Made by a program: the position numbers and the translations under genes. Positions 23,113-62,772 of a stretch of DNA of 64,000 nucleotides are shown one piece after another (the stretch's first letter is position 1; each line of letters begins with the position of its first letter). Origin of the DNA: Burkholderia sp. IMCC1007 (GTDB taxonomy: Bacteria; Pseudomonadota; Gammaproteobacteria; Burkholderiales; Burkholderiaceae); contig NZ_JAPVQY010000009.1 in assembly GCF_027257875.1 (NCBI RefSeq), positions 133,016-197,015 on the forward strand. The letters are read 5' to 3'. The notes under the pieces are model-generated. The model saw only the letters and a program-made list of their open reading frames with translations, was not told the origin of the DNA and made no database searches.

Positions 23113-23134
23113 GCCAAAGTGCTATTATTTTGGC
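23113..23134. promoter_or_regulatory. Inverted repeat upstream of hipBA, candidate operator
   Basis: GCCAAA-N10-TTTGGC at 23113-23134, in an AT-rich stretch 39 bp before the hipB start. HipB-type antitoxins autoregulate through such palindromes. Only one copy is seen; most hip operators have more. Confidence 0.5.
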
Positions 23135-23172
23135 GTTATCCTGCAAAAATCGATGAAATATTAGCTCCGATC

Positions 23173-23685
23173 ATGGCCAAGAAGACCGCCCCGCTCTTGC
23201 CGGCATCCAATCGGCTACTCGTCGACTTCGGCGAGCGGCTGAAGCTGGCGCGCCTGCGCCGAAAGCTGACGGCGAAACAGGTCGCCGAACGCGCCGGCAT
23301 GTCGCCGATGACGCTTCGCTCCCTCGAAGCGGGCGGTTCCGGCGTAACGATCGGGGCCTATCTTTCCGTCATGCAGACGCTCGGGCTGCAGGACGATCTG
23401 GAAAAGCTGGCCGCCACGGACTCGCTCGGCCGCCAGCTTCAGGACGCCCGCCTCGCCACACCGCGGCGCCGGAAGGAAACAGCATCGCCTCCCGCGGCAG
23501 CGGCGCGCGCATCGGCCAACAGGCGCGCTCGCGCGCGGGTCGCCCCCGCGCCCCAGACCGGGGAAACAGCCGCGACGGCAGCCGGTCGCGCCCTGCCAGA
23601 CGACAATCGCGGTACGACCGCCGCGGATCTGGCCGCATTGCTGAAACCGGTGGGCAGGCGGCACGGGGGCCCAGCCAAGAAATGA
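23173..23685 (+). CDS. hipB: HipB-like XRE antitoxin with long basic tail
   Basis: A 170-residue protein. Residues 17-75 are an XRE/Cro HTH ([21 protein letters not shown], then [13 protein letters not shown]). Residues 85-170 are low-complexity, rich in Ala, Pro and Arg ([17 protein letters not shown]), likely disordered; E. coli HipB is only 88 residues. The stop overlaps the hipA start in ATGA (23682-23685), giving coupled translation. It should bind HipA and repress the operon. Confidence 0.85.
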
Positions 23686-24953
23686 CGACCATCTCCGTCT
23701 ATGCGGACTGGAACAGCCTGCCCGCTCCCCGAAAGCTCGGTGTTCTGCACGCGCGGCAGACGCGCGCCACCGAACGGTTCGAATACCAGTACGACGCGGT
23801 TGCGCTGGCTGCGCCCGAGTTCGCCGGTGTGCAGCTCGACCCCGGCATCGGCCTCTTCGAAGGACCGCAATATCCGGTTCCGCCGCGCAACACGTTCGGC
23901 GCGTTCGCCGATTCGAGCCCCGACCGGTGGGGCCGCATGCTGATGGATCGCCGGCTGGAGCGCGACATTCGCGCCGGACTGCGACCGAAGGGCACGCGAC
24001 TGCATGAGTCCGACTACCTGCTCGGCGTTCATGATCTCTATCGAGTCGGCGCATTGCGCTACAAGCTCGACGACACCGGAGAATTTCTCGACGACCGCAT
24101 CGATCTCGCCGCGCCACCGTTTGCGGAGATTCGTGAACTCGAGCAAGCCAGTCGAGCTCTGGAGGAAGACGTCGACAACATCGCGCCGGACGGTCGCGAT
24201 TGGCTGTCGATGCTCATCGCGCCCGGCGGCTCGCTCGGCGGCGCAAGACCGAAAGCCAGCGTGGCCGACGATCGCGGGCATCTGTACATCGCAAAGTTCC
24301 CGAGCGCGCGAGACGACTACGACGTAGGTGGCTGGGAAATGGTTGTCAATGCACTGGCGCTCGGCTGCGGCTTGAACGTCGCCCATGCAGAAGCGCGGAA
24401 ATTCGCCAGTGACCATCACTGCTTCCTTGTCCGGCGCTTCGATCGGACTGCCGATGGCCGCAGGCTGCATTTTGCGTCGGCCATGACGATGACCGGACAT
24501 GTCGACGGCGACGATGCATCCACCGGCGCCAGCTATCTGGAACTGGCGGAGGTGCTCATCCGACACGGCGCGCGAGCGAATGCAGACCTGCGCGAACTAT
24601 GGGCGCGCATCGTATTCAACCTTCTCGTCTCGAATACCGACGACCATCTTCGCAATCACGGATTCATTCTCGAGCCGGATGCGGGCTGGAGACTCTCCGC
24701 CGCGTACGACATGAACCCCGTCGCCGTGGCCGATTGTCTCAAGCTCAACATCACGGAAGCCGACAACGCGCTGGACCTCGAACTCGCCCGCGAGGTATGT
24801 GAATATTTTCGGCTGAGCCTGAAAGACGCCGACGAGATCATCGACGACTTCCGCGGCGTCGTCGCCCAATGGCGCACGCTCGCGGCACGACTCGCGCTTT
24901 CCGCCCGCGAACAGGAGCGCATGGCCGACGCGTTTCGCCTGGCCGGCGCCTGA
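23682..24953 (+). CDS. hipA: HipA-family serine/threonine kinase toxin
   Basis: A 423-residue HipA-type protein. The catalytic loop [12 protein letters not shown] (Asp320, Asn325) and the DFG-equivalent AYDMNP (Asp343) are intact. The P-loop/autophosphorylation segment [11 protein letters not shown] (residues 182-192, Ser184) replaces E. coli's SVAGAQEK. The N-terminal HipA_N domain occupies about 1-115. HipA kinases phosphorylate glutamyl-tRNA synthetase or other translation targets and induce persistence; the target here is unknown. All key residues are present, so I expect an active toxin. Confidence 0.88.
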
Positions 24954-25811: not shown

Positions 25812-27431
25812 TCAACGCGCGACGTCGAGCGCCAGCCGCACCGCCTCCCAATCGAGCCCGAATCGCGCGAGGTACTTGCGCAACCGGTCCGCGTCGTTCG
25901 GCTGCTTCTTGTTCTGCCGCGACACCGCGAACAGCGTGCGCCCGGCTTCCGACAAACTCGCCGATACGCGGCACACGTCCAGCACGCGTTCGAGCTGCGC
26001 GCGGTCGAACAGGTCGAGTTCCGCCGCCCGCGCACCGAATACCGCGTCGACGTGCGCGTCCGGCGCCCGGCCGCTGCCCGGCGACGACCACGTGCGCGTC
26101 AAGCGCTCGACCTCCTGTTCGGCGATGCCCTCGGTAATCCGCCCGGCATCGGCCAGCGTCGCCATCCGCGTGATCGATGCGGACAGCTCGCGGAAGTTGC
26201 CGGCCCACGTCGCGCGCGGCGATGCGGCGAACGCGAGATAGCGCCGCTTCGCTTCCACGTTGAACCGCACCTGTTCGCCCTGCTCGCGGCCGAAACGATC
26301 GAGTTCGAATTCGAGGTTCGGCTCGATGTCCTCGCGGCGTTCCGCGAGCCCCGGCAATTCGTAAGTCCACAGGTTGATCCGCGCATACAGATCCTCGCGG
26401 AACGTGCCGGCCGCCACCATCTGCCGCAGGTCGCGGTGGGTGCCGGCGATCAGCTCGAAATCGCTGGTCGCCTCGACGTCCGCGCCGACCGGCAGGAAGC
26501 GCTTCTCCTCGATCGCCTTCAGCAGCATCGCCTGCTCGTCGAGCCCGAGTTCGCCGATCTCGTCGAGAAACAGCAGGCCGCCGTCCGCCGCGCGCAGCAG
26601 GCCCGCGCGGGCGGACTGCGCGCCGGTGAACGCGCCCTTCACGTGCCCGAACAGCGTGGACATCGCGGCGTCGCCGCGCAGCGTCGCGCAGTTGATCTCG
26701 ATGAACGGGCCCGCGAGCCGATGGCGGCCGCGCTTCAGTTCGTACACGCGCTTCGCGAGAAACGACTTGCCGGCGCCCGTCGGGCCGACCAGCAGCATCG
26801 GCGCGCGCGAACGCACGGCCACGCGCTCCAGCTGCTCGATCAGCGCGTTGAAGCGCGCGTTGCGCGTCGCGATGCCGGCCTTCAGGAACGACACCGTCTC
26901 GTCGCGCTCGTGCGTGAAGCGCTGCGCGATGCGGTTGTAGCGCGACAGGTCGAGATCGATCACCGACACCGTGCCCGGCCCGCTCGGCCCTTCGTCGGTC
27001 TGCTGCGGCGGCCCGGTTTGCACGAGGCGCGCGGGCAGGTAGCGCGCTTCCGCGAGCAGGAACCAGCAGATCTGCGCGACGTGCGTGCCGGTCGTGATGT
27101 GAACCAGATAGTCCTCGCGGTCGAGATCGAACGGATAGGCGCGCGCGTAGTCGTGCAGCGTCGCGTAGACCTCCTCGAAATCCCACGGGTCGCGGATCGT
27201 GATCGGCGTGAGGCGCACGTCGGTATGCGGCGACAGTTCCGCGAGATCGTCGCGCACCTGCAGCGCGAGGCGCGTGTAGCCCGGCGGATGCAGCAATTCG
27301 AGGCGATCGATCGCGAGATCCGGTTGCGCGCACAGCGACACGGTCGGGCGCCACTTGCGGAAACGGCGCGGCGCGCGGCCGCCCTGGTCGAGCACGGTGC
27401 CCAGAAAGCCGATGGCGACGGTTTTGCGCAT
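25812..27431 (-). CDS. rtcR: RtcR, sigma54-dependent activator of RNA-repair genes
   Basis: A 539-residue bacterial enhancer-binding protein. Residues 1-180 form the RtcR regulatory domain, a CARF-like Rossmann fold (IGFLGTVLDQG at the start, HITTGTHVAQICWFLL near 111-126). The AAA+ domain has Walker A GPTGAGKS (216-223), the sigma54-contacting loop GAFTGA (266-271), Walker B LLFLDEIGE and an arginine-finger region. A C-terminal helical segment would carry the DNA-binding HTH. In E. coli and Salmonella, RtcR responds to damaged tRNA pieces ending in 2',3'-cyclic phosphate. It is divergent from the sigma54 promoter at 27580. Confidence 0.95.
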   Translation of the reverse strand: MRKTVAIGFLGTVLDQGGRAPRRFRKWRPTVSLCAQPDLAIDRLELLHPPGYTRLALQVRDDLAELSPHTDVRLTPITIRDPWDFEEVYATLHDYARAYPFDLDREDYLVHITTGTHVAQICWFLLAEARYLPARLVQTGPPQQTDEGPSGPGTVSVIDLDLSRYNRIAQRFTHERDETVSFLKAGIATRNARFNALIEQLERVAVRSRAPMLLVGPTGAGKSFLAKRVYELKRGRHRLAGPFIEINCATLRGDAAMSTLFGHVKGAFTGAQSARAGLLRAADGGLLFLDEIGELGLDEQAMLLKAIEEKRFLPVGADVEATSDFELIAGTHRDLRQMVAAGTFREDLYARINLWTYELPGLAERREDIEPNLEFELDRFGREQGEQVRFNVEAKRRYLAFAASPRATWAGNFRELSASITRMATLADAGRITEGIAEQEVERLTRTWSSPGSGRAPDAHVDAVFGARAAELDLFDRAQLERVLDVCRVSASLSEAGRTLFAVSRQNKKQPNDADRLRKYLARFGLDWEAVRLALDVAR

Positions 27432-27432
27432 G

Positions 27433-27468
27433 TTTATCTCATGGGATAAAAGCCAATCCGATTTTATC
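27433..27468. promoter_or_regulatory. Candidate RtcR enhancer (TTTATC half-sites)
   Basis: TTTATC-N6-GATAAA (27433-27450) and a further TTTATC at 27463-27468, the two TTTATC elements 30 bp (three helical turns) apart. They lie 140-175 bp upstream of the predicted sigma54 start and touch the rtcR start codon, allowing autoregulation. Assignment to RtcR is inference. Confidence 0.5.
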
Positions 27469-27579
27469 TAAATTCGGCAGTCGAGCGACAACGACCTTCC
27501 CTTCGCTCGCCGCCCCAAAATAAACAATCCTCTTTTGTTTCAACCACTTGTCGACATTTTCAATGGCTGCGCCAGCCGC

Positions 27580-27595
27580 TGGCACGCTCCTCGCT
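27580..27595 (+). promoter_or_regulatory. Sigma54 promoter of the rtc leader-slipin-rtcB unit
   Basis: TGGCACGCTCCTCGCT: TGGCACG at -24 and TCGCT at -12, with canonical GG-N10-GC spacing. Consensus is TGGCACG-N4-TTGCT, so there is one mismatch in the -12 box. Predicted start is near 27606. Confidence 0.85.
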
Positions 27596-27632
27596 AAATA
27601 AGAGGGGCCGGATGTCCCGCTGGCCCGCGAGC

Positions 27633-27651
27633 CAGGGTTCAAAAAGCCCTG
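27633..27651 (+). ncRNA. T-arm-like hairpin at the start of the rtc leader
   Basis: CAGGG (27633-27637) pairs with CCCTG (27647-27651) around TTCAAAAAG. The TTCAA start of the loop recalls a tRNA T-loop but the loop is 9 nt, not 7. No acceptor stem can be drawn around it. Possibly a decayed tRNA-like unit. Confidence 0.4.
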
Positions 27652-27719
27652 CTGGTGCGCCGCCGCCGAACCTCGTTCGTTGCGGCCGCGCATGCCGCCA
27701 TGGACAGACGAAGGCAAAG

Positions 27720-27765
27720 GGGCGCGCGAGGCAGCTTCGTCCGGGTTCGAATCCCGGGGCGCCCA
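27720..27765 (+). ncRNA. Minimal tRNA-like element (acceptor plus T-arm)
   Basis: GGGCGC (27720-27725) pairs with GCGCCC (27759-27764), a 6-bp acceptor. The T-arm is textbook: CCGGG-TTCGAAT-CCCGG (27741-27757). Between them are only 15 nt, able to form CGAGG-CAG-CTTCG (27727-27739), so there is no D-arm/anticodon-arm pair. An alternative is GACGAAG (27707-27713) pairing with CTTCGTC (27735-27741). An unpaired A follows the acceptor. It cannot decode. Confidence 0.68.
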
Positions 27766-27766
27766 C

Positions 27767-27838
27767 TGTTCGGAAGCTCAACAGGTAGAGCAGCCGGCGC
27801 AAGCCGGTGTGTGGCGGGTTCGAATCCCGTCCGAACGT
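27767..27838 (+). ncRNA. tRNA-like RNA lacking an anticodon loop
   Basis: The fold is a near-complete class I cloverleaf. Acceptor TGTTCGG / CCGAACG (27767-27773 / 27831-27837, one T-G wobble). D-stem GCTC / GAGC (27776-27779 / 27788-27791) with loop AACAGGTA that keeps the GG of the D-T contact. Five-nucleotide variable loop GTGTG. T-arm GCGGG-TTCGAAT-CCCGT (27814-27830). In place of the anticodon arm is GCCGGC-GCAA-GCCGGT (27793-27808), a 6-bp stem with a GNRA tetraloop. No anticodon and no encoded CCA. It lies directly after the minimal element, 1 nt apart. Confidence 0.82.
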
Positions 27839-28094
27839 TGTCCGCAAGGACAATTTCTGATGAAAGCAGTACCCGCCGGCGCGGGCCGACAGGCCCGCCG
27901 CGCGTCGAACCGGTTGCGGTTCCGCGCGATCGGCCGGGCGGCCGGACGGCCAGCGCGAACGCGCACGACGACGCGATGCAGGATGCGTCGCCGCGTGCTG
28001 CCGCGCCGGCCAACGCGCCGCCCGCCCGATCGCGTCGCACCCCGATCCGTACGAGGCATGTCGTCCGGCGGTCATTGAAGAAAAGGACAAGAAT
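27839..28094 (+). other. Structured 3' part of the rtc leader RNA
   Basis: No gene. Serial hairpins follow the tRNA-like unit: TTGTCC-GCAA-GGACAA (27838-27853), GCGGGCC-GACA-GGCCCGC (27881-27898), and CGCG-TC-GAACCG-GTTG-CGGTTC-CGCG (27901-27926). A GGCC-rich stretch follows to 27950. The slipin ribosome site AAAAGGA lies at 28082. Predicted leader length from the sigma54 start is about 490 nt. Confidence 0.7.
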
Positions 28095-29234
28095 ATGTGG
28101 AAGCGTCATGTAGTGAAAAAGAACGAACGCGCGCTGCTGATGAATGAGGGCGATTTCGTGAAGGTTCTCGAACCGGGCGTGTTCAAGGCCTTCGATCCGT
28201 TCAAGCGACTGTCGGTGCAAACCGCGCGTCTCGACGCGCCGCTCGCCGACGAAGCGTTGGCCGACTATCTGCGTCACGACGCACCGGACGTGCTCGCGCA
28301 GCACTTCGTCGCGATGGACCTGGCCGACGACGAAGCGGGCCTGCGCTACGAAGACGACGTGCTCGTCGAGATCCTGCCGCCGGGCACGCGCCGGCTGTAC
28401 TGGCGCGGCCTGATCGCGCACCGTCTGGAGCGCGTCGACCTCGCGCAGGACAGCATGCTGCCGGCCGCACTCGCGAAGCGCATCGCGCAACCGGCGCTGC
28501 GTGCGCGCGGCGTGGCGGGGCTGGCGGGCGTGCTGCTTGCGCAGGTGCCGGCGTATCACGTCGGGGTGCTGAAGATCGACGGCAAGATCGAGCGGCTGCT
28601 GGACGCGGGCGTGACGGCGTTCTGGCGCTTCAACCGCGACGTGGCGGTCGAGCTCGTCGACCTGCGCCTGCAGCCGCTCGAAGTCGCGGGGCAGGAAATC
28701 CTGACGCGCGACAAGGTCGCGCTGCGGCTGAACCTGTCGGCGACGTGGCGTTATGCGGACGTGCTGCATGCGTTCGCCCAGCTCCAGAAGCCGCTCGAAC
28801 ACCTGTATCGCGAGCTGCAGTTCGCGCTGCGTGCGGCCGTCGGCACGCGCTCGCTCGATGAACTGCTGGAGGACAAGCAGGCGATCGACGACGTCGTGAT
28901 CGCGCAGGTCCGCACGCGCCTTGCGCAATCGGGCGTCGACGTGCGCAGCGTCGGCGTGAAGGATATCGTGCTGCCGGGCGACATGAAGACGATCCTCGCG
29001 CAGGTGGTCGAAGCCGAAAAGGCCGCACAGGCGAACGTGATCCGCCGCCGCGAGGAAACGGCGGCGACCCGCTCGCTGCTGAACACCGCGAAGGTGATGG
29101 AAGAGAACCCGACCGCGCTGCGACTCAAGGAGCTGGAAACGCTCGAGCGCGTCGCGGAACGGATCGACCGCATCTCGGTGTTCGGCGGTCTCGACCAGGT
29201 GCTGAACGGACTCGTCAGCATCAAGGGCGCATGA
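28095..29234 (+). CDS. Slipin (SPFH/band 7 family) protein of the rtc locus
   Basis: A 379-residue protein. The SPFH/band 7 domain covers about residues 160-300 (VAVELVDLRLQPLEVAGQEILTRDKVALRLNLSATWRY is the core; key part LEVAGQEILTRDKVAL), followed by a charged helical stretch with VEAEKAAQANVIRRREETAATRSLLNTA (core AEKAAQANVIRRREETAA) that is typical of slipins. The N-terminus (MWKRHVVKKNERALL) lacks a membrane helix, unlike stomatin, so membrane attachment may be peripheral. Slipins recur beside rtcB in proteobacterial RNA-repair operons but their role there is not established. The start has AAGGA upstream. It is 88 bp before rtcB. Confidence 0.87.
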   Translation: MWKRHVVKKNERALLMNEGDFVKVLEPGVFKAFDPFKRLSVQTARLDAPLADEALADYLRHDAPDVLAQHFVAMDLADDEAGLRYEDDVLVEILPPGTRRLYWRGLIAHRLERVDLAQDSMLPAALAKRIAQPALRARGVAGLAGVLLAQVPAYHVGVLKIDGKIERLLDAGVTAFWRFNRDVAVELVDLRLQPLEVAGQEILTRDKVALRLNLSATWRYADVLHAFAQLQKPLEHLYRELQFALRAAVGTRSLDELLEDKQAIDDVVIAQVRTRLAQSGVDVRSVGVKDIVLPGDMKTILAQVVEAEKAAQANVIRRREETAATRSLLNTAKVMEENPTALRLKELETLERVAERIDRISVFGGLDQVLNGLVSIKGA

Positions 29235-29322
29235 TGCACGAAGCACACGAAGCGCATGAAACTGGATGAAACGGCGCGGCGCAGGGCCGCCGCGCCGCAC
29301 GCATGAACGAATGGTGAAGCCT

Positions 29323-30546
29323 ATGAGTAACGACGATTATCAACTGATGGAACTGGCGAACGGCAAGCCGGTGAAGATGTGGACGCAAGGCGTCGCCGTC
29401 GAGGACGACGCGCGCACGCAGTTGCGCAATACCGCACAGATGCCGTTCATCTTCCGGCACGTCGCGGTGATGCCGGACGTGCACCTTGGCAAGGGCTCGA
29501 CGATCGGCAGCGTGATCCCGACGAAGGGCGCGATCATTCCGGCGGCGGTCGGTGTCGACATCGGCTGCGGGATGATGGCTGCACGCACGACGCTGCGCGC
29601 CGCCGATCTGCCCGACTCGCTCGCGGGCCTGCGCAGCGCGATCGAACGCGCGGTGCCGCACGGCCGCGCGCCGGGCCGCCGCGATCCCGGCGCGTGGGGC
29701 GATCGCACGCCGGCCGCCGTGACGGATGCATGGAAGTCGCTGCTGCCGGGTTTTCAGCGGATCGTCGACAAGTATCCGAAGCTGCAGAAGACGAACAACT
29801 ACGCGCATCTGGGCACGCTCGGCACCGGCAACCACTTCATCGAAGTGTGCATCGACGAAGCCGATCGCGTGTGGTTCATGCTGCATAGCGGCTCGCGCGG
29901 CGTCGGCAACGCGATCGGCAGCCTGTTCATCGAACTCGCGCAAGCCGACATGCGGCAGCACATCGCGAACCTGCCGGATCGCAATCTCGCGTATTTCAAC
30001 GAGGGCAGCCGGCACTTCGACGACTACGTCGAAGCGGTCGGCTGGGCGCAGGACTACGCGCGCCGCAACCGGCAGGCGATGATGGATGCGGTGATCGGCG
30101 CCGCGCGTGACGTGATCGCCAAGCCATTCGGGCTCGACGAGCACGCAGTGAACTGCCACCACAACTACGTGCAGCGCGAACGCCACTTCGGCGAGGACGT
30201 GCTCGTGACGCGCAAGGGCGCGGTGTCCGCGCAGAAGGGGCAACTCGGGATCATTCCGGGCTCGATGGGCGCGAAGAGCTTCATCGTGCGCGGGCTCGGC
30301 AACCCGGAGAGCTTCTGCTCGTGCAGCCACGGCGCCGGCCGCTCGATGAGCCGGACCGAAGCGAAGCGCCGCTTCACGGTCGACGACCAGGTGAACGCGA
30401 CGCGTGGCGTCGAATGCCGGAAGGACGCGGGTGTCGTCGACGAAATCCCGATGGCCTACAAGGACATCGATGCGGTGATGGCGGCGCAGCGCAGCCTCGT
30501 CGAAGTGGTGCACACGCTGCGCCAGGTGGTGTGCGTGAAGGGATAG
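29323..30546 (+). CDS. rtcB: RNA-splicing ligase RtcB
   Basis: A 407-residue GTP- and Mn-dependent RNA ligase that joins 2',3'-cyclic phosphate or 3'-phosphate ends to 5'-OH ends. Metal ligands Asp79 and Cys82 lie in VDIGCGMM; further ligands are His171 (GTGNHFIEV), His188 (LHSGSRGVG) and His280 (NCHHNYV). The guanylylated catalytic histidine is His336 in CSHGAGRSMSR. All active-site residues are intact. The start MSNDDYQLM was chosen since an upstream in-frame ATG would add 19 arginine-rich residues. No rtcA (RNA cyclase) follows in this locus. Confidence 0.96.
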   Translation: MSNDDYQLMELANGKPVKMWTQGVAVEDDARTQLRNTAQMPFIFRHVAVMPDVHLGKGSTIGSVIPTKGAIIPAAVGVDIGCGMMAARTTLRAADLPDSLAGLRSAIERAVPHGRAPGRRDPGAWGDRTPAAVTDAWKSLLPGFQRIVDKYPKLQKTNNYAHLGTLGTGNHFIEVCIDEADRVWFMLHSGSRGVGNAIGSLFIELAQADMRQHIANLPDRNLAYFNEGSRHFDDYVEAVGWAQDYARRNRQAMMDAVIGAARDVIAKPFGLDEHAVNCHHNYVQRERHFGEDVLVTRKGAVSAQKGQLGIIPGSMGAKSFIVRGLGNPESFCSCSHGAGRSMSRTEAKRRFTVDDQVNATRGVECRKDAGVVDEIPMAYKDIDAVMAAQRSLVEVVHTLRQVVCVKG

Positions 30547-30717
30547 CGGGCGCGTCGCCAAGACCCGCGCGCATCTTCGATCGCCGTCGCACGATTCGCG
30601 GCCGCAGCAGCGGTATACTCGTTGCTGTCCGGCCGCGCTCGATCCGCATCGCGCGCTTACGATGCGCTTTCAACCGGACGTCCGCCCTACTCCCCGTCAT
30701 CGCCGATACGAACCGTC

Positions 30718-31872
30718 ATGTTTCGTCATCTCCCGCTTGCTGCCGCCGTCATCCTGCTCACCGTGTCGCTGTCCGCTGCCGCGCGCGACTCCGCGCAACA
30801 TCCGGTCGCGCGCGATTTCAAGAACTGGTCGGTCGTCTGCGACAACGCGAACCGCTGCGTCGCCGAAGGCGGCAACGACGACATCGACGACACGCGCACC
30901 AGCCTGATCGTGCGGCTCGCGCGCGACGCCGGCCCGGATGCGCGACCGTCGCTGGAGATCTTCGCGTCGGCGCCGCTCGATCTGCGCACCGCGCGCGCGG
31001 ACGGTCGACCGTTCGACGCAGTGCCGGCCGAGTGGCACGCGCTCGCCAAGAGCAACGAAAACGACGACGTCTATCCGTTCCATATTCGTACCGGCGATCC
31101 GACGACGGTCGACGCATGGCTGACGATGTCGCACAACGCGCAGGTGCTGAGCTTCGGCGACCCGGCCGATACGCGCACGCCGCGGGTATCGCTGTCGGGA
31201 CTCAATGCCGCGCTGCTGCTGATCGACGACACGCAAGGCCGCATCGGCACGGTCACCGCGCTGCTGCGCAAAGGTGCCAAGCCCGCATCGGCGGTGCCCG
31301 CCGCACCGGCGCTGCCGCCCGCGCCCGTTCCGGCGCCGCGCGTGGCCGATCTCACGCCGGCCGAACAACGCCCGCTCGTCGACGCGGTATTCGACAAGTT
31401 CGGCGCCAGCGTGAAGCGTTGCGCGGCCGATGCCGGCGACGAGATGTCGCTGGCCGATCGCCGCAAGGCCGCATCGGCCACCGCGATCTCGACCACCGAC
31501 GCGATCGTGTCGATCCCGTGCGAGACGAGCAGCGCGTACAACCATACGGACCTGTGGTATCGCGTGCACCGCAGCGCGCCGTATGCGCCGACGCCGCTCG
31601 ACTTCGGCGAGAACGCCAGCGCGGGCCTCGACCCGGCATCGTTCTCGAACCAACTGACCGAAGCGATCTACGATCCCGCGCATGCGACGCTGTCGAGCCT
31701 CGATCGCGTGCGCAGTGCCGGCGATTGCGGGTCGAGCGCGTCGTGGGTGTTCGACGGCCGGCGCTTCGTGCTGAACGACGTCGCGATGCACGGCGCGTGC
31801 AACGGGTTGTTCCAGGCTCAGTGGCCGCGGCTGTATCGCACCGGTGGGTCGGTGGATACGCAGCAGCCCTGA
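30718..31872 (+). CDS. DUF1176-family periplasmic protein
   Basis: A 384-residue exported protein. The signal peptide is MFRHLPLAAAVILLTVSLSAAA. The mature part opens with VARDFKNWSVVCDNANRCVA, the DUF1176 (invasion-associated-like) start with paired cysteines, and ends with CGSSASWVFDGRRFVL and MHGACNGL, again typical. An Ala/Pro linker lies near residues 190-205. Function unknown. No ribosome site is evident before the ATG. Confidence 0.82.
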   Translation: MFRHLPLAAAVILLTVSLSAAARDSAQHPVARDFKNWSVVCDNANRCVAEGGNDDIDDTRTSLIVRLARDAGPDARPSLEIFASAPLDLRTARADGRPFDAVPAEWHALAKSNENDDVYPFHIRTGDPTTVDAWLTMSHNAQVLSFGDPADTRTPRVSLSGLNAALLLIDDTQGRIGTVTALLRKGAKPASAVPAAPALPPAPVPAPRVADLTPAEQRPLVDAVFDKFGASVKRCAADAGDEMSLADRRKAASATAISTTDAIVSIPCETSSAYNHTDLWYRVHRSAPYAPTPLDFGENASAGLDPASFSNQLTEAIYDPAHATLSSLDRVRSAGDCGSSASWVFDGRRFVLNDVAMHGACNGLFQAQWPRLYRTGGSVDTQQP

Positions 31873-61213: not shown

Positions 61214-62772
61214 CCTCGACGACGACCGACCGGCGCGATGCGCCGCCCGCCCGCGGCGACAGCCGCGACCTCGACGTGCTGATCGTCGGCGCCGGCCTGT
61301 CCGGCATCGGCGCCGCGTATCACCTGAAGAAGCGCTGCCCGCATGCGAGCGTCGCGATCGTCGAGGCGCGCGATGCGATCGGCGGCACCTGGGACCTGTT
61401 CCGCTATCCCGGCATTCGTTCGGATTCCGACATGTTCACGCTCGGCTACAGCTTCCGCCCGTGGCACAGCGACAAGGCGATCTCCGACGGCCAGACGATC
61501 CTCGACTACATTCGCGACACCGCGCGCACGTACGGCATCGACAAGACGATCCGCTACGGCCAGAAAGTCGTCGCGGCCGACTGGGATTCGAACCGCGCGC
61601 GCTGGACGGTGCGCGTCGAGCGCGCGCACGACGGCACGCGCGACACGCTCGTCTATACGTGCCGCTTCCTCTACATGTGCAGCGGCTACTACGACTACGA
61701 CGGCGGCTACCTGCCCGACTGGGCCGGCATGGAATCGTTCGAAGGCCGTATCGTGCATCCGCAGCACTGGCCGAAGGACCTGTCGTACGCGAACCGGCGC
61801 GTCGTCGTGATCGGCAGCGGCGCGACGGCCGTCACGCTGGTGCCGTCGATGGCGGCCGACGCGCAGCACGTGACGATGCTGCAGCGCTCGCCGACCTACA
61901 TCGTGTCGCTGCCGGTGCGCGACAAGATCGCGAACGCGTTGCGCCGCGTGCTGCCGTCGAAGCTCGCGCACCGGCTCGTGCGCGTGAAGAATGTGTTGCT
62001 GACGATGTACCTGTACAACGTGTCGCGCCGCAAGCCCGCGCGCACCAAGCGGTTCATCATCCGCGCGGCCGCGAAGCAACTCGGTGCCGACTTCGACGTC
62101 GCGAAGCACCTGACGCCGCGCTACATGCCGTGGGACCAGCGCGTGTGTCTCGTGCCGAACGGCGACCTGTTCAAGGCGATCCGCGCGGGCCGCGCGTCGA
62201 TCGTCACCGACGAGATCGAGCGCTTCACGCCGACCGGCCTGAAGCTGAAAAGCGGCGAGCAGCTCGACGCCGACGTGATCGTCACGGCCACCGGGCTGAA
62301 GGTGAAGCTGCTCGGCGGCGCGCGCGTGACGGTGGACGGCCGCGCGGTCGACTTGCCGCAGACGGTGTCCTATAAAGGAATGATGTACAGCGACGTGCCG
62401 AACCTCGCGTCGTCGTTCGGCTACACGAACGCGTCGTGGACGCTGAAGGCCGAGCTGATCTCGCGCTACGTGTGCCGGCTGCTGAACCACATGCGTGCGC
62501 ACGGCTACGACACGTGCGTGCCGCGGCTCGGCGCCGGCGATCTCGGCGACGTGCCGGCCGTGAACCTGAGCTCCGGCTACATCCAGCGCGCAGCCGGCAT
62601 CCTGCCGAAGCAGGGCCACCGCAAGCCATGGAAATTCCATCAGAACTACGTGCTCGATCTCGCATCGCTGAAGTTCAGCGGACTCGCCGATTCGGCGATG
62701 CAGTTCGAACGCCGCGCGCAAGCCGGCCCGGCCGCCGCGCCGGTTGCCGAACCCGTACTCGAAACCCGCTGA
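61210..62772 (+). CDS. Flavin monooxygenase, Baeyer-Villiger type
   Basis: A 520-residue FAD/NADPH monooxygenase. FAD Rossmann motif VLIVGAGLSGIGAAYHL, the BVMO fingerprint FxGxxxHxxxW seen as FEGRIVHPQHWP, and the second nucleotide motif VIGSGATAVTLVP are all present, as is the GTWDLFRYPGIRSDSDMFT region. It would insert oxygen next to a ketone to give an ester or lactone, using the SDR product. Starts in an ATGA overlap with the SDR. Confidence 0.92.
   Translation: MTSTTTDRRDAPPARGDSRDLDVLIVGAGLSGIGAAYHLKKRCPHASVAIVEARDAIGGTWDLFRYPGIRSDSDMFTLGYSFRPWHSDKAISDGQTILDYIRDTARTYGIDKTIRYGQKVVAADWDSNRARWTVRVERAHDGTRDTLVYTCRFLYMCSGYYDYDGGYLPDWAGMESFEGRIVHPQHWPKDLSYANRRVVVIGSGATAVTLVPSMAADAQHVTMLQRSPTYIVSLPVRDKIANALRRVLPSKLAHRLVRVKNVLLTMYLYNVSRRKPARTKRFIIRAAAKQLGADFDVAKHLTPRYMPWDQRVCLVPNGDLFKAIRAGRASIVTDEIERFTPTGLKLKSGEQLDADVIVTATGLKVKLLGGARVTVDGRAVDLPQTVSYKGMMYSDVPNLASSFGYTNASWTLKAELISRYVCRLLNHMRAHGYDTCVPRLGAGDLGDVPAVNLSSGYIQRAAGILPKQGHRKPWKFHQNYVLDLASLKFSGLADSAMQFERRAQAGPAAAPVAEPVLETR

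Follow-up and report, generated by a model that had tools for sequence, protein, structure and literature searches.

A conserved composite RNA with two tRNA-like folds precedes the slipin gene in rtc operons of Burkholderia and other bacteria and is a candidate partner of slipin in RNA repair

In 2016, Burroughs and Aravind (Nucleic Acids Res) reportedly described SPFH/Band-7 repair modules that have a novel tRNA-like molecule as their cognate RNA. In rsr-yrlBA-rtcBA operons, the tRNA mimics YrlA and YrlB are encoded beside a scaffold-like protein, Rsr (Ro60), together with RtcB and under the control of RtcR. The vault particle is a further related system: its major vault protein (MVP) has an SPFH shoulder, and the particle also holds vault RNA and the TROVE-containing protein TEP1. 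In Anabaena, a trn operon with a spare tRNA array and rtcB share the repressor TrcR and rise under translational stress, and the slipin gene alr0740 is reported to rise in a trcR deletion (PMC10272220). The Anabaena system differs from the one examined here in that its genes occupy separate loci, a repressor takes the place of RtcR and the available sections of that study mention no tRNA-like leader (PMC10272220). Cleaved tRNA is reported to be what RtcR responds to (PMC7790460).

The window, a stretch of 64,000 nucleotides from Burkholderia sp. IMCC1007 (contig NZ_JAPVQY010000009.1, positions 133,016 to 197,015), carries an RtcR-regulated rtc operon with a divergent rtcR gene, a sigma54-type promoter and rtcB (Table 1). 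Here a tRNA-like RNA adjoins the gene of a Band-7 protein, slipin, in an RNA-repair operon, the features by which Burroughs and Aravind reportedly define their kind. The window's RNA most likely belongs to that kind, whose published description may already include details worked out here. The kind itself is thus not new, and the statement of an earlier, sequence-only reading of this DNA that nothing of the sort had been described does not hold at that level, in view of what the 2016 abstract reportedly names. No description of this particular RNA was found in the literature searched, including passages of PMC11090510, PMC6514570, PMC7824862, PMC11237479, and PMC7652931; PMC11237479 cites Burroughs and Aravind for Band-7 proteins in complex assembly. 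The slipin-RNA unit and the YrlA/YrlB-Rsr unit occupy comparable places in their operons, but the RNA described here has another partner gene, another architecture and no YrlA score above the gathering threshold.

Table 1. Features of the rtc locus, in positions of the window.
Feature	Position	Strand	Description
rtcR	25812-27431	minus	CARF-sigma54 activator with RtcR (PF06956) and Sigma54_activat domains; divergent from slipin-rtcB
Sigma54-type promoter	27580-27595	+	TGGCACGCTCCTCGCT; GG-N10-GC
Module A (5')	27620-27701	+	Hairpin P1 and helix P2 with conserved AU bulge (GGU-GCGC ... GCGC-AU-GCC)
TL1, reduced tRNA-like fold	27720-27765	+	Acceptor stem, short hairpin and T-arm; no D-arm
TL2, tRNA-like cloverleaf	27767-27838	+	Rfam tRNA, 39.5 bits, E 2.4e-6 (gathering score 29)
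TL2 anticodon arm	27793-27808	+	GCAA tetraloop at 27799-27802
GTCC-GCAA-GGAC hairpin 3' of TL2	27840-27851	+	By eye
3' conserved block	27866-27950	+	Starts with GCAGTACC; by eye
slipin (SPFH/Band-7)	28095-29234	+	PF01145, 98.5 bits; without transmembrane-like segment
rtcB RNA ligase	29266-30546	+	PF01139, 433 bits

Approximately 490 nt without a convincing gene separate the sigma54-type site from slipin. The site, which has one mismatch to the sigma54 pattern, lies 149 bp from the start codon of rtcR. Matches to this pattern are not scarce in the window (145 at up to three mismatches, below the shuffled count), so support for the promoter comes from its position and conservation: 14 of its 16 positions are invariant in 31 aligned Burkholderia leaders, and, in the comparison beyond the genus, a site with at least 10 of the 12 consensus letters stands before 31 of the 32 leaders scanned, L197 being the exception. 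The earlier proposal of a sigma54- and RtcR-controlled operon is supported. Neither a sigma70 promoter nor a terminator was found in 27400-28150. RtcA (PF01137) was not found in the window's genome by profile search; in enteric bacteria it is reported to contribute to RtcR activation (PMC9650030).

The leader had also been read as free of open reading frames, which stands in part. Mechanical ORFs do overlap it (e.g., 27655-28113, 152 aa), but the gap between rtcR and slipin ranges from 662 to 676 nt among Burkholderia relatives and its differences are not multiples of three (31 leaders). Such out-of-frame lengths speak against a leader peptide. As to the neighbourhood, a HipA-like protein (23682-24953; HipA_C) is encoded just 3' of a small ORF (23119-23685) that is HTH-like by eye; together they would form a hipBA-like pair (23119-24953), with a LysE-type gene between the pair and rtcR. 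A gene for a DUF1176 protein (30622-31872) follows directly after rtcB on the same strand.

The leader is composite. Module A scores 75.7 bits in the window with its covariance model R2, the training set of which includes the window sequence. P2 is the longer of its two helices, and P1 corresponds to the T-arm-like hairpin noticed earlier upstream of the tRNA-like folds, now placed in a conserved, covarying module. Three more hairpins had been listed as well: P1 and P2 covary, and the one 3' of TL2 is seen by eye. The two contiguous tRNA-like folds of that reading were recovered as TL1 and TL2. Against Rfam, TL1, taken as 27721-27763, gives sub-threshold matches only (mascRNA, 21 of 42.5 bits); two pairs of its acceptor stem go from GC to AU, each in one row. 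In TL2, the D-stem pairs GCTC with GAGC, the T-arm contains TTCGAAT, and GCAA closes the anticodon stem. The sole Rfam family above its gathering score in the window is tRNA, and ARAGORN called no tRNA at all there. The T-loop motif occurs four times in the window against 0.84 expected, four being reached in 3 of 100 shuffles; the motif also stands at 61584-61594 on the minus strand, and ARAGORN calls no tRNA at that place. Folding of the leader has a z-score of -1.44, with 18 of 200 shuffles folding equally well, and the minimum-energy fold of the lone window sequence pairs TL1 with TL2 instead of giving a tandem cloverleaf. The leader exceeds chance by its conservation and covariation; motif or folding energy alone is insufficient.

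Sixty-five Burkholderia genomes were searched and RtcR was present in 40 of them. All 41 distinct Burkholderia loci have two T-loop motifs within 450 nt upstream of slipin. An alignment of TL1-TL2 from 39 of these loci, omitting L041 (reduced TL2) and L119 (segment duplicating another row), varies little, with 99.7% of cells paired versus 98.1% in shuffles. Nevertheless, these same-genus rows contain seven pairs with double changes versus 1.8 in shuffles, and 28 double-change cells versus 6.9. In 37 of the 39 rows, a GNRA tetraloop takes the place of the TL2 anticodon loop, which agrees with the earlier description of the folds as incompetent for decoding: nearly all Burkholderia rows lack a usable anticodon loop.

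For TL2, 34 loci were compared (8 of the 41 Burkholderia loci and 26 outside the genus; 32 distinct rows) in a MAFFT alignment that was not fitted to structure and from which two ordinary tRNAs of L046 were removed. The 20-pair cloverleaf has 96.4% of cells paired, versus at most 46.0% in slid versions, and 88 double-change cells versus 24.7 in shuffles. Its D-stem is invariant, while all five pairs of the anticodon stem change on both sides. The 12 pairs of module A, in 35 loci, are paired in 92.1% of cells (slid versions, at most 50.7%) with 60 double-change cells versus 16.8 in shuffles; the number of pairs with a double change is equalled by 35 of 500 shuffles. This alignment was chosen by motif and hand-set anchors, so R2 matches its own training members by construction, and it omits the motif-less leaders L094, L099, L101, L103, L104, L111, and L197. 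Kinship inflates the double-change counts, yet the slid controls retain the kinship and score far lower. The sequence-only reading had named a covariation search as the check on its folds; the covariation is strong over the 34 loci, and the failure of pairing in relatives that would have spoken against the folds was not seen.

Two covariance models were used in searches: R1, built from Burkholderia sequences only, and R2, the model of module A, which contains no tRNA part. R1 matched leaders at E<1e-6 in, among others, Rhodocyclaceae, Chitinibacter, Formivibrio, Thiobacillus, Pseudomonas nitroreducens, and P. aeruginosa PA7. The T-loops of the tRNA-like RNA are 64-83 nt apart and lie approximately 180-430 nt before the slipin start codon. 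In L197, three T-loop motifs spaced 71 nt apart precede slipin, a triple tRNA-like version. As judged from these comparisons, the predicted composite leader RNA is conserved, structured and covarying beyond Burkholderia.

Outside Burkholderia, 132 distinct RtcR loci were analyzed, comprising named loci (the best 80 of 530 relatives) and loci from genomes sampled by order, class, and phylum (64 places taken; nine genomes with partial or weak RtcR matches omitted). The named loci lean to the window's RtcR because the best 80 of 530 relatives were taken. With that composition, 39 loci contain slipin, 41 contain Rsr, 43 have rtcB with neither of these detected over the span covered, and nine show none of them. 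A match to R1 or R2 at E<=1e-4 was obtained in 30 of the 39 slipin loci, the named ones again being the best 80 of 530, and R1 alone, built without outside loci, matched 27 of the 39 at the same threshold. Neither model matched, at E<=1e-4, the leader of any of the 84 RtcR loci that have Rsr or rtcB but showed no slipin over the span covered; this count takes leader matches only, and L185, an rtcB-only locus, has an R1 match about 4.7 kb away. The contrast of 30/39 versus 0/84 gives a Fisher value of 5e-21 with kinship ignored. At least two T-loop motifs within 450 nt occur in 26 of the 39 slipin loci, one in 12 and none in one; L059 has module A and no T-loop motif. Among Rsr and rtcB-only loci, the motif occurs within 450 nt in 3/41 and 2/43, respectively, which is about the background for these loci (145 in 725,674 nt, both strands). 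The bearers are L196 (an ordinary tRNA-Pro), L219, L238, L239, and L244; a stricter T-arm scan adds L184 and L233.

The nine slipin loci without an R1 or R2 match at E<=1e-4 are seven from Enterobacterales (L094, L099, L101, L103, L104, L110, and L111), each with a single T-loop motif, i.e., a reduced version, plus L204 and L213. All four loci in which slipin is not the first gene, being located behind rtcB or rtcA, keep one or two T-loops 250-375 nt before slipin. The close relatives L039 and L040, where rtcR adjoins rtcB and slipin is absent, gave no R1 or R2 match. Slipin and Rsr occurred together in none of 173 loci (the first 30 Burkholderia loci being examined over 1.5 kb only). The RNA thus follows the slipin gene, wherever it sits, rather than RtcR or RtcB, as far as these predicted matches indicate, and the functional tie to RtcR suggested by the sequence-only reading is not borne out. 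Some tRNA-like leaders do occur outside slipin loci: in the Rsr loci L238, L239, and L244, the leaders are 1.1-1.5 kb long and show three or four T-arm-like hairpins in the stricter scan, with R1 at E 0.2 or worse and no tRNA called by ARAGORN in L238. Seven loci without slipin (L043, L049, L053, L054, L073, L219, and L230) have rtcR-rtcB gaps of approximately 540-780 nt, which by eye hold a small basic ORF instead of the RNA; its product presumably resembles a zinc-ribbon protein.

The R2 model was also used to search 349 genomes sampled by order and 339 sampled by phylum, with strict filters that lose weak matches. It yielded 22 distinct loci, 21 of them with the match up to about 0.6 kb upstream of slipin; 12 belong to the training set, and nine of the other ten precede slipin. 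Eight loci lie in genomes where no RtcR was found. Seven of these precede slipin and six have full-length R1 matches at E<1e-7. A match of 34.7 bits in L294/L304, which lies close to a gene for guanylate kinase and has no slipin, was treated as chance. In four of the eight loci, real tRNA genes stand before the RNA and share its strand: Gly-Cys-Pro-His in L297, Gly-Phe-Cys-Pro-His in L299, seven tRNAs (at about 7.8 to 9.9 kb) in L300, and Pro-Leu-Ser in L302. A single tRNA-Arg precedes the RNA in L301, and L298, L303, and L304 have none there. An rtcB gene is located near the slipin module in L297, L298, L299, L300, and L302. In L185, the R1 match far from rtcR was predictive, since it then revealed a slipin gene 0.4 kb downstream; this place (L185/L305) also holds Asn-His-Gly tRNAs, the RNA itself, and a second, distant RtcB, and its slipin shares 44% identity with that of the window. 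The loci with tRNA arrays, RNA, and slipin (L297, L299, L300, L302, and L305) may represent RNA-repair operons that also resupply tRNAs. In L303, the RNA and slipin are followed by an AAA ATPase gene, and no rtcB match was obtained in 14 kb. ORFs flanking the loci without RtcR revealed no common regulator; AbiEi-, HipA-, and HTH_17-type domains were encountered in one locus each, the HipA protein being encoded near the slipin module of L300.

Several readings of the tRNA-like folds can be weighed against these data. Non-functional tRNA fragments, left for example by an integrated element, would account for the degenerate tRNA likeness and for nothing else; they are contradicted by the covariation and by retention of the folds in 41/41 Burkholderia loci and in other families, and we give them next to no credence. 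A set of spare decoding tRNAs, by now partly degenerate, that resupplies cleaved ones is very improbable. It would agree with the real arrays found ahead of the RNA in half of the eight loci without RtcR and in L185/L305, and with the canonical 7-nt loops with U33 in six of the 34 TL2 rows, but these six carry six different anticodons, most loops are of another type, and the tRNAs of the arrays are separate genes. In the window, TL2 passes the gathering score of the tRNA family (RF00005) but ranks 58th of the 59 tRNA matches in its own genome, has a GCAA tetraloop in place of a 7-nt anticodon loop with U33, and is not followed by an encoded CCA. A functional tRNA in this genome was rejected on the basis of the rank, the GNRA loop, and the missing ARAGORN call. 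A YrlA-type Y RNA that has lost Rsr is likewise disfavoured, to the point of being hardly credible. The YrlA model (RF02553) does give a score of 19.6 bits on the window versus a gathering score of 69, in a match that links the TL1 T-arm with the TL2 D-arm, but a pair of ordinary neighbouring tRNAs from this genome reaches 20.3 bits. Scores above gathering (69-107 bits) were obtained in 8 of 15 other loci (14 with Rsr by BLAST, plus L206) and in none of 19 loci (18 with slipin seen, plus L063, which is 582 nt long). Rsr/TROVE was detected in none of the 65 Burkholderia genomes at E<=0.001, the control matching in Deinobacterium only, as the earlier remark on the absence of Rsr had it. A Y RNA of this type was rejected for its sub-threshold score, similar to that of ordinary tRNA pairs, and for the absence of Rsr from the genus.

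The slipin profile matches stomatin SPFH domains, and the protein has a Band-7 domain and an SPFH fold. Its predicted model (pLDDT 82.9, pTM 0.62) matches stomatin, HflK and prohibitin over residues 143-363 in a fold search, with the major vault protein lower; the search barely covers residues 1-142, for which no match is claimed. Stomatin has an N-terminal membrane segment. In the 38 slipins examined, no membrane-like segment was found, the best 19-residue hydropathy mean being at most 1.75 and never N-terminal. A soluble SPFH scaffold is plausible because a transmembrane-like stretch is absent and the predicted fold matches SPFH. Hints of expression come from P. aeruginosa. Strain PA7 has slipin as the first gene, and its TL2 is called tRNA-Arg by ARAGORN. 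The tRNA gene PA4581.1 is reported among the highest increases in a later cystic-fibrosis isolate, its meaning being unknown (PMC8743555), PA4582 is described as belonging to the rtc operon, with its function unknown (PMC8619066), and the SPFH gene PaFlo8 is placed in the rtc locus of PA14 (PMC13086221). We infer that PA4581.1 is TL2, matched by its locus number before PA4582 and not by sequence.

The explanation we prefer, and regard as somewhat probable on the comparative evidence, is that the leader encodes a composite RNA, with transcription predicted to start from the sigma54 promoter, that acts as the partner RNA of a soluble slipin in RtcB-dependent repair of cut tRNA. Cleaved tRNA would activate RtcR and turn the operon on, and the RNA would be produced together with slipin and RtcB. 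Slipin would form a ring or cage and bind the RNA by its tRNA-elbow surfaces, i.e., the invariant D-stem and the near-invariant T-arm; the anticodon arm would be free to vary or to take a tetraloop cap since decoding is not used. The resulting slipin RNP would hold tRNA halves or RtcB together, a part that Rsr with Y RNA may play in the other type of operon. The position of the slipin-RNA unit, where Rsr sits in other operons, argues for such an RNP role near tRNA repair. A more specific and rather doubtful form of this idea is a vault-like repair particle, the SPFH counterpart of Rsr/Y RNA, in which a soluble SPFH cage surrounds a dedicated RNA with two tRNA elbows and no decoding loop and captures tRNA halves for RtcB; where RtcR is missing, it would be delivered together with a replacement tRNA array. 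Points against a partner RNA are the lone-sequence fold with its weak z-score, the nine slipin loci without a match, the tRNA-like leaders of three Rsr loci and the six canonical TL2 loops. Moreover, in every slipin locus where the predicted RNA was found, it lies ahead of the gene and in the same direction, as would also be the case for a cis-acting leader whose folds, acting within the 5' UTR, are sensed or are processed (e.g., by RNase P or Z) and control the stability or translation of slipin-rtcB. tRNA-like elements are natural sites of RNase P and RNase Z and would suit such a function, as would the spacing of the T-loops, but the distance of the folds from the start codon and the retention of module A with a tRNA elbow whether or not RtcR is present, which implies differing control, make a cis leader unlikely, though deserving consideration. 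Less likely still is a decoy, inhibitor, or feedback ligand, which would compete for an anticodon nuclease or attach to RtcR's CARF domain; the sequence-only reading had in view a decoy or ligand of this sort, or an RNA that RtcB might process and religate. The tRNA likeness and the place in an RtcR operon would fit it, and competitive inhibition was raised for YrlA by the authors of PMC7790460, but in the same report YrlA, the Salmonella operon's own tRNA mimic, is described as not being a nuclease substrate (PMC7790460). In addition, a GNRA loop replaces the anticodon loop in nearly all Burkholderia rows, with which a nuclease decoy fits poorly, the RNA is present where no RtcR was found, and leaders of slipin-less RtcR operons gave no model match.

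The details worked out here are that the folds stand in tandem, that the 5' module covaries, that the anticodon arm is GNRA-capped, that the RNA keeps to slipin outside RtcR operons as well, and that tRNA arrays can precede it. The RNA also raises an annotation issue: in eight loci of other species, ARAGORN names TL2 as a tRNA, and no two of these share an anticodon. It bears on what RtcB repairs in bacteria and on why rtc operons carry slipin or Rsr. Defined by covariation and following slipin, it is a concrete candidate for a partner, and its distribution points to slipin-RNA and Rsr-Y RNA as alternative cassettes of RNA-repair operons.
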